Shown piece after piece: positions 36,847-57,077 of a DNA stretch of 64,000 bases. Position 1 is the stretch's first letter. Every line of letters begins with the position of its first letter. The translations under genes and the position numbers were made by a program. The DNA lies in the NCBI RefSeq assembly GCF_001040845.1, contig NZ_CP011941.1, positions 825,744-889,743 on the forward strand. The letters run 5' to 3'. The notes beneath the pieces were generated by a model, which was not told where the DNA came from, did not search any database, and saw only the letters and a list, made by a program, of their open reading frames with translations. This DNA is from Synechococcus sp. WH 8020 (GTDB lineage Bacteria; Cyanobacteriota; Cyanobacteriia; PCC-6307; Cyanobiaceae).

Positions 36847-37340
36847 GACATCAACGAGTCAACCTATTTTTACAACTCTTTACCCATCAACCGTGAGTCG
36901 GTCGATACCAAATGGACAGGGTCTCAGATATTGGAAGGGGCAAAGGGGCTTCTGCTCTTCAGCTGGCAGGGGAACGAAGGGCAGCAGTCGAACCCTTTGC
37001 GGTCACCAACCCTCAAGACATTCACCCTGTGCCAAGAGCTCAGCCATAGGTTGATCCCCAGAGACAGGTCTCAAAGACATAACTGTAAGTTTGAAAAACG
37101 ACGTTGGGCAAAAGAGAGATCTCTGATCATCGCGAGCCATCAAGGTTGATGAGGTTGTCGACCTCAGAGATCGAGGCTCGATCAAACACAGGCTGATTCC
37201 AGGACACACAAGCGAAGATCCCGGTTCATAAAATTACAGGCTGTCTTATCACAACAATCCTGAGAATCCACCAGAAACACTGAGCTCAACGGCTCCGGTC
37301 AATGTTTTATCTAGCTTGTAGAAACAAAGGACCTGGTTTG
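36847..37340. other. Intergenic region before the polyketide operon
   Basis: Nearly 500 bases with no convincing gene. A 72-codon plus-strand frame at 36931 and a 68-codon minus-strand frame at 37003 lack family features. The promoter of the methyltransferase-flavoprotein-PKS operon should be near the right end. Confidence 0.45.
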
Positions 37341-38060
37341 ATGATCTGGGGTAGAGCGCTCAACAACCGCGATCGACAACCGGAAGTGATGGATCAACCG
37401 GGCCTCGATCCCAGAGAGCATGCAAAAGCGTTAATGGGTTTGAGACGCATCAATACGATCAGTCGCTGCTCTGCTGGCCTGTATCGGCCCATCGAGTCTC
37501 TAGCGATCACTCAGCCAGCCACACCGCTTCGTGTTCTCGAACTTGCCTGTGGAGGCGGTGATACAGCCATCGACCTTGCCCTGATGGCCAAGCGAAAGGG
37601 TTTGGGACTCGAGATTCATGCCTGTGATCTCAACCCTGAGGCCGTCGAGATTGCTAAGACCAATGCAAGAACAAGAAAGGCTGAAATCACTGTCTTTACT
37701 GCTGATGCTTTGGCAAAGCCAGCGGACCCGATCACTTTTGATGTGGTGTATTGCACGCTGTTCGCGCATCACCTAGATGAGATTGACGTGGTTCGCCTCT
37801 TAGAAGTGATGGCACTACGATCTCGAAAACTCATTCTCGTGGATGACTTAATTCGTAGTCGACTTGGGTTTGCATTGGCCTGGATTGGCACCCGACTCTT
37901 AAGTCGTTCCTGGGTGGTTCATACCGATGGTCCACTGTCTGTACGGGGAGCTTTTCAACCCGATGAAATGATGGGCATCGCCAAGCGAGCAGGTCTGAAA
38001 GGTGCGCAGATCAAACGCTCATGGCCAGAGCGATACCTGTTGAGCTGGACACGGTATTGA
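37341..38060 (+). CDS. SAM-dependent methyltransferase of the type III PKS operon
   Basis: Class I methyltransferase. The SAM site is VLELACGGGDTAIDLAL, followed by CDLNPEAVEIAKTNA and FDVVYCTLFAHHL. The segment before it (RQPEVMDQPGLDPREHAKALMGLRRIN) is typical of methyltransferases found in type III polyketide gene sets, as in SrsB-like systems that methylate phenolic lipids. The first plausible ATG gives MIWGRALNN; the frame opens 13 codons earlier. The stop is one base before the flavoprotein start. It is inferred to methylate the polyketide product. Confidence 0.85.
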   Translation: MIWGRALNNRDRQPEVMDQPGLDPREHAKALMGLRRINTISRCSAGLYRPIESLAITQPATPLRVLELACGGGDTAIDLALMAKRKGLGLEIHACDLNPEAVEIAKTNARTRKAEITVFTADALAKPADPITFDVVYCTLFAHHLDEIDVVRLLEVMALRSRKLILVDDLIRSRLGFALAWIGTRLLSRSWVVHTDGPLSVRGAFQPDEMMGIAKRAGLKGAQIKRSWPERYLLSWTRY

Positions 38061-38061
38061 G

Positions 38062-39222
38062 ATGCAAACGTTGTGGGATGTCTTGATTATTGGAGGAGGC
38101 CCAGCCGGAGGTCTTGCAGCTTTGGATTGTGCGAAACATGGATTGCGCGTTTTGCTCGTTGAACAACGGTTATTTCCGCGCTGGAAGGTCTGTGGATGCT
38201 GCTTCAACAATCAGGCTCAAGCGATTCTGAACTCGCGAGGTCAGAACAACTTGATTGTGGATAGCGGTGGACAGGCACTAAGAAGCTTGCGCCTTGGTCT
38301 GCGTGAACGGGAAACAACGTTAGCCCTACCCAACGGGTATGCCCTGTCCCGTGAACGATTCGATCAAGCCCTGATCCATGCTGCAATCCAAGCTGGAGCA
38401 ACAGCTCGCTTTCACGTTACGGCCCAAGTTGAAGCCGTATCCCCTGAGTACAGACGTGTGCGCCTAAAAGATCATCAAAGTGGAGCTACCAGCCATGCCA
38501 AAGCGCGCGTTGTGCTGGTGGCAGCTGGTCTGACCCAACGCTGCCTTCCCAAACATGAAGCAGGACTAAGCGACATTCACCAGCAATCAAGACATGGTGC
38601 TGGATGCGTCGTGTTTGATGACAGCCATCACTACCCGGTAGGAGCCATTCATATGGCTATTGGTGATAGGGGCTACGTGGGATTGGTTCGAAGGGAGGAC
38701 GGATTGCTCAACCTGGCAGGAGCCTTTGATCGTGAGGCGCTATCCCAAGGAAAAGGAGCCATTGATGCTGCTCAACACGTATTAAATCAGGCAGGATTTC
38801 CGGTACCTGAAGCAGTTCAACAAGGCCAACGCTGGCAACGCACTGCAGCGCTTAGCCGGAGCACGGGTGTGGTGGCAGGTGAACGCTTTCTAGTGATGGG
38901 CGATGCCGCGGGATATGTCGAACCCTTCACCGGTGAAGGAATGGCCTGGGCGCTAACAGCGGGGGCTGCTGCTACACCGTTCGTTCTGAAAGGAGTGGAA
39001 CGATGGACTGAGGATTTGGAAACGCACTGGAAGAGCACGCTTCAGCTGACGATCGGCAGGCGTCAAATGGTCTGTCGGGCCCTGTCTTCGGTGTTAAAAC
39101 GCCCAAGGCCCACAGCTTTGTTATTTGAGCTCGTGAATCGATGGCCCGCCGTGGCTGAACAGATCATCTCCAGCCTGAACGAGGCCAAGCTGCCATCGCC
39201 CAAAGGTGAGCCATGCCTTTGA
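38062..39222 (+). CDS. FAD-dependent oxidoreductase of the type III PKS operon
   Basis: Flavoprotein of the geranylgeranyl reductase/aromatic hydroxylase-like superfamily. The FAD Rossmann motif is DVLIIGGGPAGGLAALDCA with VLLVEQ at the second strand end, and the GD motif is VMGDAAGYVEPFTGEGMAWALTAG. CGCCFNNQA near residue 45 is Cys-rich. In comparable polyketide operons such a flavoprotein hydroxylates or reduces the resorcinol/quinone product. The end overlaps the PKS start by 10 bases, indicating translational coupling. Confidence 0.88.
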   Translation: MQTLWDVLIIGGGPAGGLAALDCAKHGLRVLLVEQRLFPRWKVCGCCFNNQAQAILNSRGQNNLIVDSGGQALRSLRLGLRERETTLALPNGYALSRERFDQALIHAAIQAGATARFHVTAQVEAVSPEYRRVRLKDHQSGATSHAKARVVLVAAGLTQRCLPKHEAGLSDIHQQSRHGAGCVVFDDSHHYPVGAIHMAIGDRGYVGLVRREDGLLNLAGAFDREALSQGKGAIDAAQHVLNQAGFPVPEAVQQGQRWQRTAALSRSTGVVAGERFLVMGDAAGYVEPFTGEGMAWALTAGAAATPFVLKGVERWTEDLETHWKSTLQLTIGRRQMVCRALSSVLKRPRPTALLFELVNRWPAVAEQIISSLNEAKLPSPKGEPCL

Positions 39223-40307
39223 GTGTTCGTGGGCTCGGTACCGCAATACCCGAGCAAACCGTCAATCAAACAGAATCAACAACACTGTCTCAATGGGTCA
39301 GTGCCGACAGTGAAAAACAAGCGTCGCTCGTACGACGCATTCAAAGGCGCTCGCAAGTCCAAACCAGAGGCAGTGTTTTATTAACTGGTGATGCAAAGCA
39401 GGCAATTCATCAACGCTTGCCGTTTTACGGGGATGAGAGCCCCAGCACGGCAACACGGATGGAAGCGTATCGACTGCATGCCACGTCATTGGCGCTGAAA
39501 GCAAGCAAACAGGCACTAGCAGAGTCGAAAATCTCTGCTCATACCATCACGCATCTGATCACAATCAGTTGTACAGGTTTTCATGCTCCTGGTGTTGATT
39601 GTGATCTGATTGATCAACTTCACTTACCACTAAATACACAACGCACGCATGTGGGATTTATGGGATGTCATGCGGCATTAAATGGTTTACGCGTTGCTCA
39701 TGCTTTTATAGAAGCAGATCCCAAAGCTGTTGTTCTGCTTTGTGCTGTTGAACTATGCAGTCTGCATTTGCAATACGGCTGGAATCCTGAACAGGTCGTG
39801 GCCAATACTTTGTTTGCAGATGGTGCTGCTGCAGCGGTCGCGACGTATTCTGAGAGGGTCACCCATGAGCCAAGTTCAAGCGGATTGTGTCTACAGGCCT
39901 CCGGGTCCACAGTGATTCCAGAGACCAGAGAATTAATGCATTGGCAGATTGGAAATCAAGGTTTCTCGATGGGCTTATCCCCTAAAGTTCCTGAAGCAAT
40001 TGCCAACACATTGCAACCATGGCTATGTGAATGGCTGGATGCCCGTGGCACAGATCTCAAGAACATTCAACATTGGGCCATTCATCCAGGAGGTCCAAGA
40101 ATTCTTCAAGCATGCGCTGAAGCCTTATCACTGAGTGAAGACCAAGTAGCTGTTTCAAGACATGTCCTGAGTCACTACGGAAACATGTCGTCTGCAACCA
40201 TTTTGTTTGTTCTTAAGCATATGCGCCAGCACCATTGTCATGGACCCTGTGTTGCACTTGCCTTCGGGCCGGGGTTATGTGCAGAAGTTGCTTTGATATC
40301 CCTATAG
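39213..40307 (+). CDS. Type III polyketide synthase (chalcone/stilbene synthase family)
   Basis: Homodimeric ketosynthase that extends an acyl-CoA starter with malonyl-CoA and cyclises the chain without an acyl carrier protein. The catalytic triad is visible: Cys152 in GFMGCHAALNGL, His291 in WAIHPGGPRIL and Asn324 in SHYGNMSSATI. The thiolase-fold segments LITISCTGFHAPGVDCDLI and NTLFADGAAAAV match the bacterial branch. Grouping with a methyltransferase and a flavoprotein resembles srsABC of Streptomyces, which makes alkylresorcinol-derived phenolic lipids; a similar alkyl-quinone or pyrone product is inferred. The starter unit is unknown. Confidence 0.94.
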   Translation: MPLSVRGLGTAIPEQTVNQTESTTLSQWVSADSEKQASLVRRIQRRSQVQTRGSVLLTGDAKQAIHQRLPFYGDESPSTATRMEAYRLHATSLALKASKQALAESKISAHTITHLITISCTGFHAPGVDCDLIDQLHLPLNTQRTHVGFMGCHAALNGLRVAHAFIEADPKAVVLLCAVELCSLHLQYGWNPEQVVANTLFADGAAAAVATYSERVTHEPSSSGLCLQASGSTVIPETRELMHWQIGNQGFSMGLSPKVPEAIANTLQPWLCEWLDARGTDLKNIQHWAIHPGGPRILQACAEALSLSEDQVAVSRHVLSHYGNMSSATILFVLKHMRQHHCHGPCVALAFGPGLCAEVALISL

Positions 40308-40403
40308 GTGCAATCAACTATCGATGAGTTGCCAGTTTTAACGATCAAGATTTCAAAGGAAGCCAGCACTTATGATCAAGAGAGTGTTACCGGTGGGATC
40401 GAG

Positions 40404-40901
40404 ATGAAACGAGTTTATTTAGGGGTTTTAATGGCACTATTTTTTGCCATTCTCTCTCTACCTGTGAATGCTCAGCAAGCCGCAACCATCATTGAGCAAC
40501 CATTGAGTCCGTCCACTCGCCCCAAGATTGCCATTTATCGATCTGAGAGTTGTGGGTGCTGCACGAAATGGGGTGAGTACATAGAAGCTGAAGGCTTCCC
40601 AATCCAAGACAAGGTGGTGAAGGATATGGATGCTTTCAAACAAGCCAACGGCATCACGCCAGAGCTGGCGTCTTGCCACACTGCAGTTGTGGAGGGATAC
40701 GTTGTGGAGGGGCATGTTCCTGCAGCATCCATCAACAAAATGTTGGACGAACGTCCAGACATCAGAGGTCTCACAGCTCCAGGAATGCCCATGGGATCTC
40801 CTGGGATGGAAACTGCAGGGATCAAAGCTGAAGCATTTGATGTCCTTGCCATCGCGAACGATGGAACGACCACAATCTATGATCAAATCAGGCCTAAGTG
40901 A
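40404..40901 (+). CDS. Secreted DUF411 protein
   Basis: A signal peptide (MKRVYLGVLMALFFAILSLPVNA) precedes a DUF411 domain. The CGCC motif in YRSESCGCCTKWGEYIEAEGF and the later ASCHTAVVEGYVVEGHVPA carry Cys and His residues that could bind metal; DUF411 genes in proteobacteria often lie near copper-resistance genes. I placed the start at the ATG before the signal peptide, since the frame extends 32 codons upstream directly from the PKS stop. It may be the fourth gene of the polyketide operon. Copper binding is inferred. Confidence 0.85.
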   Translation: MKRVYLGVLMALFFAILSLPVNAQQAATIIEQPLSPSTRPKIAIYRSESCGCCTKWGEYIEAEGFPIQDKVVKDMDAFKQANGITPELASCHTAVVEGYVVEGHVPAASINKMLDERPDIRGLTAPGMPMGSPGMETAGIKAEAFDVLAIANDGTTTIYDQIRPK

Positions 40902-44565: not shown

Positions 44566-46638
44566 GTGACAGGGAATCCGCTTCAACCCCTCCAACAGTT
44601 GGCTCCCTACATCGTGGGTCGTGTTCGGCGTGGAGTTGTCGGCAGCAGTCGCTACGCCTGCAAGCTACGTGAAGCGATCCGCAACGCAGCCTCAGATTCC
44701 GAGCGCAGGCCTGTTCTGATCTCCGGGGAGCCTGGCTTGGAAAAGGACAATATCGCGTCCTTGATTCATTTTGGATCGCCAGACCGAAAGCAATTAATGC
44801 TTCGGCTTGATGGAGCTCTTCTTAAACCCGATGGCAGCGACATTTTCGGTTCTTCGGGAGATCCATCCAAGGCTTCGCTACTCCAACAACTGGGGCATGG
44901 ATCGCTACTAATCGATCAACTGGAACGGGTGCCAGAACAGCTCAAATCTCGCCTGTTGGAGTTAGCAGAAGGAAAGGTTGATAGCCAAGTCCGTCTGATC
45001 TTCACATCAGAAACACTCAGTCCTGGCTTTGATCGTTGCTGCACAGTAATCCGCGTTCCTCCCCTGCGTGTAAGGCGTCAGGATCTCGGAGAATGGCTGC
45101 GTTACGGAGTTCGGCAACGTAGTTCCATCTTGGGCTGGGCTCAAGCTCCTCTGGTTCCCGAGGCGGTGGTGAAACAGTTGCAGGCTTACGACTTCCCCAA
45201 CAATCTGCGCGAGCTCGAAACGCTGATACAGCAGGCTCTCCAACAAATGGAACAGGAGGGCCAAGCCGCCCCTCACGTGATACCTGAAGTGGTGTTTTGG
45301 ACGCCTCAAAGACAACAGCTCTATCGCTTCGACATTTGGCGTTGGAAACCAAAGCTACGTGAGTTGATGCGCTCCCCATCGCTATGGAATGGGTTGCTGT
45401 TTGGAGTTGTGAGCTGGTTGTTTGTGTTGGTGAACCTGTGGTTATGGCTCGGACCACAAGACCGGGCCCATAACGGTGCTCTCAATCTTTTCTGGGGCTG
45501 GTGGTGGCCTCTCATTCTTTTGAGTTATCCATTCGTGGGTCGACTGTGGTGTTCCTTCTGCCCTTTCATGGTCTGGGGAGAGATTGTTCAACGCTGCGCT
45601 CGTCGACTTGGCTGGCAACCCAATCGCTGGCCTCGAAGTCAAAGCGACACTTGGGCCTCACCCATGCTCGCAGCTGGATTTGCTGTGATCTTGATCTGGG
45701 AAGAGGTGTGGAACCTACAAAACACAGCTTGGTTGAGCAGCTGCCTCTTGCTTGTGATTACAACAGGCGCAGTAGTCAGTTCACTGCTGTTTGAGAAACG
45801 GTTTTGGTGTCGTTACCTCTGTCCGGTCGGTGGAATGAATGGGTTATTTGCCAAACTTTCCGTCTTGGAACTGCGAGCGAAAGCGGGAACATGTAGCGGC
45901 AGCTGCAGCAGTTATGCCTGTTTCAAAGGAGGACCCTCGGAAGGGGAAGGATTGGCCACAGAGGGCTGCCCGCTAGGAACGCACCCCGCCCATCTTCAAG
46001 ACAACCGTAATTGCGTGCTCTGTCTCACCTGCGCTCAGGCCTGCCCACACCAATCCGTACAAATTTCTGTGCGACCCCCTGCCGCAGACATTCAGCGCTC
46101 CATGGAAGTTCCAAGTGGCGAACCCGCTCTCATCTTGGTTTTAGCAGGAGATATTTGCTTACAAAACTGGCATCAACTTTGGGGCTGGTGGACTCAAGCT
46201 CCGCTGACTCTGGCGGAAGGTCCATTGCTGCCAAGGCTTGGGATCGCAGTCATGACTCTGGCTTTTCCTGCAAGCATCTTCGCAATCGCTCGTTTTCTGC
46301 TGAAAAAGGAACGACTCCAACGCACGCTCTATGGATTGCTGCCTTTGCTTTGGGCCGTCATGCTGGCTCAATATCTACCTTTAGGTATGAGCGAGGGTGG
46401 AGCTTTCTTACCGGTGAGCTTCTCTCCTCTTGATCTGTCTTGGCAGGAAGCGCTGCCTGTCTGGAGAGCTGATTCCCATGTGATTGGTTTCTGCCAAAGC
46501 GGAGCTGTAGGTCTGGGTTTGTTGTGGAGTGTGGTGCTGCTCAGGCGTCAGCTGGCTACCCATCGCTCGGCTTGGATAGTCGCTTCCGCTTGGGTCTCCG
46601 TGCTTGCAGTAGGTGGACGATGGCTTGTCGACAGCTAA
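44566..46638 (+). CDS. Fusion of a degenerate sigma54-activator AAA domain with a polyferredoxin membrane protein
   Basis: Residues 20-245 resemble the AAA domain of NtrC-type activators (RVPPLRVRRQDLGEWL and YDFPNNLRELETL are typical), but key parts are lost. Walker A reads GEPGLEKD (54-61), Walker B ends in DQ rather than DE (117-118), and GAFTGA is absent at the expected place. Residues 270-690 form a NapH/NosR/CcoG-like membrane module with Cys sets CSFCP (329-333), CRYLCP (415-420), CSGSCSSYAC (443-452) and a 4Fe-4S binding CVLCLTCAQACP (483-494). It probably works as a membrane redox protein with a regulatory head; the start may precede the first ATG-like codon. Confidence 0.8.
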   Translation: MTGNPLQPLQQLAPYIVGRVRRGVVGSSRYACKLREAIRNAASDSERRPVLISGEPGLEKDNIASLIHFGSPDRKQLMLRLDGALLKPDGSDIFGSSGDPSKASLLQQLGHGSLLIDQLERVPEQLKSRLLELAEGKVDSQVRLIFTSETLSPGFDRCCTVIRVPPLRVRRQDLGEWLRYGVRQRSSILGWAQAPLVPEAVVKQLQAYDFPNNLRELETLIQQALQQMEQEGQAAPHVIPEVVFWTPQRQQLYRFDIWRWKPKLRELMRSPSLWNGLLFGVVSWLFVLVNLWLWLGPQDRAHNGALNLFWGWWWPLILLSYPFVGRLWCSFCPFMVWGEIVQRCARRLGWQPNRWPRSQSDTWASPMLAAGFAVILIWEEVWNLQNTAWLSSCLLLVITTGAVVSSLLFEKRFWCRYLCPVGGMNGLFAKLSVLELRAKAGTCSGSCSSYACFKGGPSEGEGLATEGCPLGTHPAHLQDNRNCVLCLTCAQACPHQSVQISVRPPAADIQRSMEVPSGEPALILVLAGDICLQNWHQLWGWWTQAPLTLAEGPLLPRLGIAVMTLAFPASIFAIARFLLKKERLQRTLYGLLPLLWAVMLAQYLPLGMSEGGAFLPVSFSPLDLSWQEALPVWRADSHVIGFCQSGAVGLGLLWSVVLLRRQLATHRSAWIVASAWVSVLAVGGRWLVDS

Positions 46639-55478: not shown

Positions 55479-57077
55479 TTGCTGCGACGTTCTTTTTTGC
55501 AATTGGGCGTGCTGAGCGCTCTTGTGGGCAGCATCAGCCTGGAAGCATTCAGGACAACCCGAGCCAAAGTTCAGTCGGCATGGGAACGTTTCATCAGCCA
55601 GCGGACGTTTAAGCGGCCCTGCAATCCAGAGACAGTTGTCCTTGAAATCACAACGGCACGCATCACTGTCTTGGGACAATCCGTTGTTCGCGGCTGCATT
55701 CGTCAGCTCGATGGCCAACGGGGTTACACCACCTCACAACAGAAAGGCGTCAATCTCGAGCTGATCAACCAATTACCAGTGCCCACAACGGTGCATTGGC
55801 ATGGGTTGATTCTTCCTAATGCCATGGATGGTGTGCCGTTTGTCACGCAACCACCAATTCCACCGGGACAACGCCAACGAATTCACTACCCGCTAGTGCA
55901 AAACGGCACCTTCTGGATGCACTCGCACTATGGCCTTCAGACCCAAAACTACGTGGCCGAGCCTTTTGTGATCCTCAATGAGGAGCAAGAACGTTGGGCT
56001 GATCAAACAATCACCGTAATGCTGAGGGATTTCAGTTACACACCCGCGAACCAAATTCTGGACAACGTCGTTGCTGGCGAGCGCGGTGGAGGTACGGCCA
56101 TGGCTAACAAATTGGCTGATTTCGCTTGGCATCAGCCGCGAAAGCTGCTCACACAGGAGTGGGATCAAGCGAATCAACGCTTCTGTTGGAAACGTGAGCC
56201 AGGGGTCTTGATGATGGCCCCCGATGTTGTTTATGACGCGCTGCTGGCGAATGAACGCAGCCTCGATAATCCAGAAATCATTGATGTAAAGCCAGGCGAG
56301 ACCGTGACGATCCGTTGGATTGCCGGTAGTGCGTTCATGAGTTTTTTCCTTGATTTGGGTGATCTCGAAGGCGAGCTACTGCGCACCGACGCCAATCCAG
56401 TGGAGCCGATCAACGGCTCGGTGTTTCAACTCGCTACGGCTCAGCGTTTGACGCTGAGAGTCAAGGTTCCTGAAGCACCTGGGGTTTTCCCATTGCTGGC
56501 CTTAGGTGAACGCAGCAATCTGCGATGTGGCGTTGTGCTGCGTAGTAATCCCACGCTCAGCGTGCCCGACTTGGTACCGCAAACCGATCAATGGACTGGT
56601 CGCCTCGATTTCAGCCAAGACAAACGGCTTAGGGCACAAAAGCCGCTGGATGATCGATCTGCTGACAACACGATCCCGATTGCTCTAACAGGCCCTGCTC
56701 CCAAATACACTTGGGGGCTGAACGATCGTTTTTATCCCTACCGGGATCCCTATTGGGTAGAAATTGGCCAACGGGTGGAGATGGTGTTAACCAATCCCAC
56801 ACCGATGGGCCATCCCATGCATTTGCATGGGCATGAATTCCAAATTCTTGAGATTGATGGCGAGCCCTTCGACGGCCCCATACGTGACACCGTTTATGTG
56901 CCTAAGGGGGGGACTTGCCGCATAGCCTTCGATGCCAATAATCCAGGGATTTGGGCGTTCCATTGCCACATCAGCTATCACCACGTGCGCGGAATGTTCA
57001 ACGTGGTGGCTTATCGCTCTGCTGATTTGAGCTGGTGGAATCCAACTGGCGTCAGACACGAAAAACTGCCATTTTGA
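55479..57077 (+). CDS. Tat-exported multicopper oxidase
   Basis: Laccase-type enzyme that oxidises substrates such as phenols or metals and reduces oxygen to water. The N-terminus LRRSFLQLGVLSALVG is a twin-arginine signal, so export of the folded, copper-loaded enzyme is expected. The copper sites are complete: HWHG (106-109), HSH (148-150), HPMHLHGH in the C-terminal cupredoxin domain and HCHISYH (495-501) with axial Met506. Three cupredoxin domains fit the 532 residues. The substrate is unknown; Mn, Fe and Cu oxidation or phenol oxidation are all possible. Confidence 0.93.
   Translation: MLRRSFLQLGVLSALVGSISLEAFRTTRAKVQSAWERFISQRTFKRPCNPETVVLEITTARITVLGQSVVRGCIRQLDGQRGYTTSQQKGVNLELINQLPVPTTVHWHGLILPNAMDGVPFVTQPPIPPGQRQRIHYPLVQNGTFWMHSHYGLQTQNYVAEPFVILNEEQERWADQTITVMLRDFSYTPANQILDNVVAGERGGGTAMANKLADFAWHQPRKLLTQEWDQANQRFCWKREPGVLMMAPDVVYDALLANERSLDNPEIIDVKPGETVTIRWIAGSAFMSFFLDLGDLEGELLRTDANPVEPINGSVFQLATAQRLTLRVKVPEAPGVFPLLALGERSNLRCGVVLRSNPTLSVPDLVPQTDQWTGRLDFSQDKRLRAQKPLDDRSADNTIPIALTGPAPKYTWGLNDRFYPYRDPYWVEIGQRVEMVLTNPTPMGHPMHLHGHEFQILEIDGEPFDGPIRDTVYVPKGGTCRIAFDANNPGIWAFHCHISYHHVRGMFNVVAYRSADLSWWNPTGVRHEKLPF

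Follow-up and report, generated by a model that had tools for sequence, protein, structure and literature searches.

Domain organization of the protein

What would an AAA domain of the kind that activates sigma54-dependent transcription do when it is joined to a membrane iron-sulfur protein, in an organism that has no sigma54? The question is raised by a gene of Synechococcus sp. WH 8020, located within a 64,000-nucleotide stretch of genomic DNA that was analysed as a whole and is called here the window (contig NZ_CP011941.1, positions 825,744 to 889,743, forward strand). The open reading frame encodes an N-terminal AAA head followed by a membrane Fe-S module, with the following features, all numbered from the first nucleotide of the window:

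44566-46638, plus strand: whole gene, 690 amino acids, GTG start, stop codon included
44599-45309, plus strand: AAA+ head, residues 12-248, with the sigma54-activator (bEBP) AAA fold (Pfam, AlphaFold2 model, PDB matches)
44725-44751, plus strand: altered P-loop GEPGLEKDN, residues 54-62 (156-sequence alignment)
44848-44877, plus strand: site of the mostly missing, sigma54-contacting GAFTGA loop, residues 95-104 (gap in the HMMER alignment with NifA)
44902-44925, plus strand: altered Walker B, SLLIDQLE, residues 113-120, with Gln at the catalytic Glu position 118 (alignment)
45010-45012, plus strand: E149, just past the strand formed by residues 143-148 (column counts; strand from the AlphaFold2 model)
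45070-45288, plus strand: AAA lid, residues 169-241 (Pfam; N213 and E216 found in 156/156 sequences)
45319-46635, plus strand: membrane Fe-S module, residues 252-690 (hydropathy, AlphaFold2 model, NapH/MauN-like over residues 321-500 below the model cut-off)
45550-45564, plus strand: first Cys pair, CxxCP, C329 and C332 (conserved in the alignment)
45808-45825, plus strand: second Cys pair, CxxxCP, C415 and C419 (conserved in the alignment)
45892-45969, plus strand: first cluster set, C443-x3-C447-x4-C452-x15-C468-P, unusual spacing (alignment)
46012-46044, plus strand: second [4Fe-4S] set, C483xxC486xxC489xxxC493P (alignment; weak Fer4 match)

In Pfam, the head is matched by Sigma54_activ_2 (residues 25-148, 30.9 bits with a cut-off of 25) and Sigma54_activat (residues 25-135, 26.3 bits, cut-off 20.2), and the lid by AAA_lid_14, which at 23.1 bits stays under its cut-off of 27 (residues 169-241). 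The membrane module contains a Fer4_5 domain (residues 395-432, 35.7 bits, cut-off 22) and a sub-threshold Fer4 match at residues 480-496. Pfam detects neither a DNA-binding domain nor a cNMP_binding domain in the protein, and a PHROGs search retrieves two families of unknown function.

The AAA head: predicted fold and missing sigma54

The N-terminal domain is, in its predicted structure, an AAA+ domain of the sigma54-activator fold. The AlphaFold2 model, built from an alignment of 60 sequences, has a mean pLDDT of 87.8, and values over 90 through most of the head. The best PDB matches found by Foldseek are PspF, NtrX and FleQ; VIA-align superimposes the model on FleQ with Z of 21.8 and rmsd of 2.5 over 218 residues, and on NtrC1 with Z of 21.5. 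When the family profile is compared with solved proteins, NifA, VpsR, FlrC and NtrX are all retrieved at E below 1e-29, VpsR being the second best match. An earlier note, made from the sequence alone, had assigned the N-terminal third of the protein to the NtrC-type AAA domains; Pfam, the model and the fit to FleQ agree with this, the relationship to AAA proteins is seen equally in the Foldseek, VIA-align and profile comparisons, and the predicted structure preserves the AAA fold.

The protein has the AAA fold, the lid and the P-loop lysine in common with the NtrC-family activators PspF, NtrC1, FleQ and NtrX; unlike them, it lacks the Walker B Glu, most of GAFTGA, a DNA-binding domain and a sigma54 factor in the genome, and its AAA head is fused to a membrane protein. 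The rpoN profile PF04552 has no match in the WH 8020 genome or in the 60 genomes around G310, all of them cyanobacterial, and did match in the positive controls, E. coli, B. subtilis, Caulobacter and Bacteroides. The earlier supposition that rpoN is missing is borne out by these searches, and one study reports sigma54 and its activators to be absent from all 29 cyanobacteria that it examined (PMC3162934). Because rpoN is lacking, GAFTGA is mostly lost and both Walker motifs are altered, including the Walker B Glu, the head cannot act as a sigma54 activator, as the earlier note had also argued, and this function is ruled out.

Altered motifs are conserved

We aligned 156 sequences of at least 640 amino acids (157 before removal of one identical row), comprising 76 picocyanobacterial and 50 other members of what we call type A, 126 in total, and 30 members of a paralogous type B, which is separated from type A by a long branch. 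The P-loop lysine, K60, is found in all 156. The GxxGxGK form of Walker A is not intact in the window protein: it reads GEPGLEKDN, in which the Lys is retained and the Gly before it is replaced by Glu. The same P-loop is present in 76/76 picocyanobacterial sequences and in 35 of the 50 other type A sequences. The residue that precedes the lysine is Glu in every picocyanobacterial sequence (E59; 76/76), and Glu, Gly or Gln in, respectively, 40, 9 and 1 of the other 50; it is Gly in all 30 type B sequences, where the P-loop invariably contains GKT (30/30). Since 9 of the 50 type A proteins from outside the picocyanobacteria have Gly at this position, nucleotide binding by the head is possible.

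The catalytic position of Walker B, residue 118, is never Glu among the 156 sequences. The two Walker B positions are each Asn in 48 of the 50 other type A sequences, and in picocyanobacteria mostly Asp (71/76) followed mostly by Gln or Lys (63/76). In the HMMER alignment with NifA, FTGA of GAFTGA and the next four residues fall inside an 8-residue gap. Six residues, K60, D61, N62, R74, E149 and R168, are present in 126/126 type A sequences, picocyanobacteria included, and three of these, R74, E149 and R168, in none of the 30 of type B. By our reading, E149 lies near the sensor I position. Residues 153-161, which bear on the question of an arginine finger, are poorly conserved in the alignment.

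The type A head looks re-tooled rather than decaying, because its altered pocket (KDN, R74, E149) is invariant throughout type A, as strictly as the Fe-S cysteines. The earlier note had called the head degenerate, a term that falls short: the Walker A Lys is kept, and several of the changed residues do not vary. The alterations of Walker A, Walker B and GAFTGA that it had pointed out are real; those at residues 54-61 and 117-118 recur across the alignment, in which the cysteine sets are conserved too, and with no Walker B Glu in any sequence and the changed P-loop in every picocyanobacterial one, they are no local exception. Its further suggestion, that the head may sense or hold a partner protein, is compatible with the six invariant residues.

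The membrane Fe-S module

Hydropathy indicates several membrane helices beyond residue 276. Twelve cysteines are kept in all 156 sequences, save for one unread residue (X) each at 452 and 468. The cluster set at 483-493 is of the standard CxxCxxCxxxCP form, and the one at 443-468 is spaced differently; most of the loop of the latter has pLDDT below 50 in the model. The NCBIfam NapH/MauN model aligns with residues 321-500 at 46.5 bits, compared to a cut-off of 213. Foldseek found no match for the membrane module at E<=0.001, which does not in itself establish a new fold, and the best hit of a profile search for a solved relative had E of 0.07. As no solved relative was found, the case for electron transfer rests on the cysteines and the Pfam matches.

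The reading of this module as NapH-like in the earlier note agrees with the Fer4_5 match above cut-off and with the paired cysteines. NapH/MauN, CcoG and NosR share with the WH 8020 protein the CxxCP and CxxxCP pairs, Fer4_5 and the C-terminal cluster sites; the cyanobacterial family differs from them in scoring far under the NapH cut-off, in the odd spacing of one cluster set, and in the added AAA and cNMP domains. In non-photosynthetic Cyanobacteriota, the relatives of the Fe-S part are stand-alone polyferredoxins of about 420 amino acids (6 loci), adjoined in most of these loci by a gene that by eye resembles aldo/keto reductases. A second stand-alone cyanobacterial membrane protein with CP pairs, 443 and 510 amino acids long at loci L234 and L235, is distantly similar to the Fe-S module.

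A widespread family, probably trimmed in picocyanobacteria

Of 300 Cyanobiaceae genomes, 126 contain a relative; across the phylum 171 of 386 genomes do, some of these matching in the Fe-S part only; by genus, 87 of the 142 in the phylum sample have matches, again some in the Fe-S part only. The fusion is therefore not the picocyanobacterial oddity that it first seemed to be, as it belongs to a widespread cyanobacterial cNMP-AAA-FeS family, of which the picocyanobacterial form is a trimmed version. Most type A proteins from outside Cyanobiaceae (45 of 51) have lengths of 820-910 amino acids, and Pfam places a cNMP_binding domain in front of the head in all four non-picocyanobacterial members scanned, two of type A and two of type B. 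Our own profile of this N-terminal region, built from the same sequences that it then scored, detects it in 48/50 other type A, 27/30 type B and 0/76 picocyanobacterial proteins. Given this distribution, the family probably began as cNMP-AAA-FeS, and the first domain would have been lost in picocyanobacteria.

The type B paralogues (L164-L174 and L187-L206) resemble type A in the cNMP-type domain, AAA head, membrane module and cysteines; they differ in the GKT P-loop, in lacking R74, E149 and R168, and in often standing beside cysteine synthase (see below). A literature search, limited to the portions of the sources that were available, found no description of a family with cNMP/AAA-Fe-S architecture. 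Synechocystis slr0593, named "cAMP binding membrane protein", is presumably a member; the name suits a membrane protein with a cNMP domain. In an expression table of an iron-deprivation study, slr0593 has mostly negative expression values (PMC3516471). The cyanobacterial gene also occurs at L108, on a contig whose record is named for a Bifidobacterium breve MAG; that title looks wrong.

Genomic context

In the window, the flanking genes all lie on the opposite strand, so that the gene stands alone: one neighbour encodes an AMP-binding enzyme, and on the other side there are two genes, the second of which is a metallophosphoesterase by Pfam. In 79 Cyanobiaceae loci (78 of the best loci plus the window; genome sets differ between counts), the closest gene called is usually an opposite-strand one, both upstream (54 of 68 cases) and downstream (48 of 65). 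Two families recur upstream on the same strand, in 36 and 37 of the 79 loci, at median distances of 1.3 and 2.8 kb, and are mostly cut off from the gene by one on the opposite strand. No gene family recurs beside the gene in the 51 other type A loci, and neither these nor the 79 Cyanobiaceae loci yield a partner gene for type A. Neighbourhoods were called by codon usage, which misses some genes, such as the adjoining AMP-binding gene of the window; in GC-rich genomes, antisense ORFs overwhelmed a clustering based on ORF length, a filter on amino-acid composition recovered the query in only 3 loci, and both were dropped.

Elsewhere in the window, three genes in a row at 37302-40307 are perhaps a small natural-product cluster: one resembles methyltransferases by eye, and the other two encode an FAD-dependent oxidoreductase and a chalcone-synthase-type polyketide synthase. 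A DUF411 protein (40308-40901) and a multicopper oxidase (55479-57077), less than 10 kb from the gene, could be copper-related.

In type B, cysteine synthase (cysK) is the next gene downstream, on the same strand, in 13 of 31 loci (L164, L165, L167, L168, L173, L174, L194, L195, L198, L200, L201, L202 and L204), in 12 of them within 170 bp, and cydA and cydB are each nearby in 4/31; the one CysK tested scores above the NCBIfam cut-off and the one CydA below. Below the cut-offs of the respective models, SQR-like genes are matched near L173, L189 and L200; L200 also has a metallo-beta-lactamase-type protein close by, and L189 has heterodisulfide-reductase-like genes. These gene neighbours hint at a role of type B in sulfide metabolism, and type B with cysteine synthase or cydAB may represent an undescribed cyanobacterial sulfide/respiration gene group. 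For the window copy, a link to cytochrome bd is ruled out: cydA is absent from its genome and present in 1 of 31 members of the genus.

Is the ligand cyclic di-GMP?

FleQ and VpsR, which are among the best structure and profile matches of the head, bind c-di-GMP, and FleQ is a DNA-binding regulator (PMC12564702). VpsR lacks GAFTGA, as the WH 8020 head mostly does, and its Walker B Asp is replaced by Asn, the aligned stretch reading LLLNDI. One may ask, then, whether the AAA head is likewise a c-di-GMP receptor, coupling the second messenger to the redox module.

Co-occurrence with GGDEF domains is in favour. In the window's genus, GGDEF is found in 8 of 9 near-complete genomes that carry the gene and in none of 15 that do not (Fisher 1.2e-5), the hits being weak in G141 and G156 and missing in G253; above the Pfam cut-off the counts are 6/9 and 0/15 (Fisher 6e-4). 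Adenylate cyclase, a control of patchy distribution, has no such pattern (7/9 carriers, 11/15 non-carriers), and a second control, protein kinase PF00069, is uninformative, being present in 31/31 genomes. Coupling of the window copy to cAMP is ruled out, as adenylate cyclase does not track the gene and the cNMP domain is lost. In a tree of 30 genomes based on pyruvate kinase, two groups of carriers (this genome with G213, and G222) are nested among non-carriers, so that the match between the gene and GGDEF does not go back to one inherited event; this is a single-gene tree with a root of our choice, branch supports left out of consideration, G295 missing for lack of the marker gene, the low-quality genomes G830-G836, unsearched for the gene, drawn as lacking it, and the weak GGDEF of G835 likewise drawn as lacking. 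Over all 300 Cyanobiaceae, GGDEF is found in 95 of 126 carriers and 17 of 174 non-carriers, a 2x2 table in which gene presence includes fragments and broken copies and which is confounded by genome reduction. In 12 of 14 loci, a convergent GGDEF gene follows at a distance of about 110-1380 bp. Of the 14, 11 had been picked because a close GGDEF was among the positions listed, which cover part of the 126 carriers; of the three others, one has it. The one such neighbour that was scanned, at L236, is a PAS-GGDEF protein by Pfam. Loci with convergent GGDEF just past a type A gene (L236-L246, L248, L066, L070, L082, L092 and L093) come from several Cyanobiaceae genera.

Against this stand the unselected loci, where GGDEF occurs within 3 kb in 5/79 Cyanobiaceae, 2/51 other type A and 0/31 type B cases, by a profile that had its 7 seeds in these loci and may miss divergent domains. 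In the WH 8020 genome itself, GGDEF is over 46 kb from the gene, and no GGDEF is matched in 31 of the 126 carriers, some of which, such as G004, G061 and G216 of genus g5, are complete genomes; a shared non-oceanic lifestyle could account for the co-occurrence. The c-di-GMP contacts of FleQ (PMC10723142) are only partly present in type A: the equivalents of R144 and R151 are Arg in 122 and 120 of 126 sequences, that of R185 is Ala or Ser in nearly all (Arg in 1/126), that of R334 is Arg in 1/126 and that of E330 is Tyr or Phe, so that three of five contacts are missing, as matched by offset from the P-loop and a FleQ sequence (R138 and E332 were left unmatched). FleQ and VpsR also differ from the WH 8020 protein in being DNA-binding regulators.

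The link between c-di-GMP and the gene is suggestive, and a c-di-GMP receptor in the head appears unlikely. We hold it slightly less likely still that, in a phylum devoid of sigma54, the activator AAA domain became a pseudo-ATPase sensing a cyclic dinucleotide, perhaps c-di-GMP, and gating electron flow through a membrane Fe-S protein; if true, membrane redox chemistry would be under second-messenger control without transcription.

Proposed function and alternatives

With reasonable probability, the protein transfers electrons at the membrane, as members of the NapH/CcoG/NosR group do, and a non-hydrolysing AAA head gates or docks its redox module. We infer electron transfer from homology, and also infer the lack of ATP hydrolysis, the gating or docking, and the side of the membrane on which the head lies. 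Fe-S clusters in or beside the membrane would carry electrons, as in proteins of the NapH/CcoG/NosR kind. The head, a putative cytosolic pseudo-ATPase, can open no sigma54 promoter and should not hydrolyse ATP; its re-tooled pocket may bind a ligand or a partner protein and in this way gate or dock the redox module. The cNMP-type domain that precedes the head in most copies from other cyanobacteria would provide a second input, dropped in picocyanobacteria.

CcoG- and NapH-type proteins serve partner enzymes, in the case of CcoG the cbb3 oxidase. The head could, by analogy, serve a partner enzyme as a site of docking or assembly, with the membrane part giving electrons or reduced metal to that enzyme, and the proximity of type B to cydAB (4/31 loci) and cysteine synthase (13/31) fits such a role. 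Genomic context, however, offers no partner gene for type A in the 79 Cyanobiaceae and 51 other loci described above, and cydA is all but missing from the genus, which leaves this the less probable option, if the best of the alternatives. It is quite improbable that the protein is a membrane-bound transcription regulator working with a sigma70-type polymerase, in the manner of the cytosolic VpsR: VpsR, without GAFTGA, does come second among the solved profile matches, but Pfam sees no DNA-binding domain, and the membrane Fe-S module makes up nearly two thirds of the protein. Least credible of all is a relic on its way out, with a jobless head. Broken picocyanobacterial copies do exist (G112, split over two frames; G115 and G273, with in-frame stops; a few more), yet the pocket does not vary among 126 sequences, which come from many families of cyanobacteria.

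If the reading of the protein as a redox carrier with a gating or docking head is right, it shows clearly how the AAA domain of a transcription activator can be taken over to control a redox membrane protein without hydrolysing ATP. Type B, adjoining cysteine synthase and at times cytochrome bd and SQR-like genes, would offer a direct way into the biology of the family, through sulfide and respiration.
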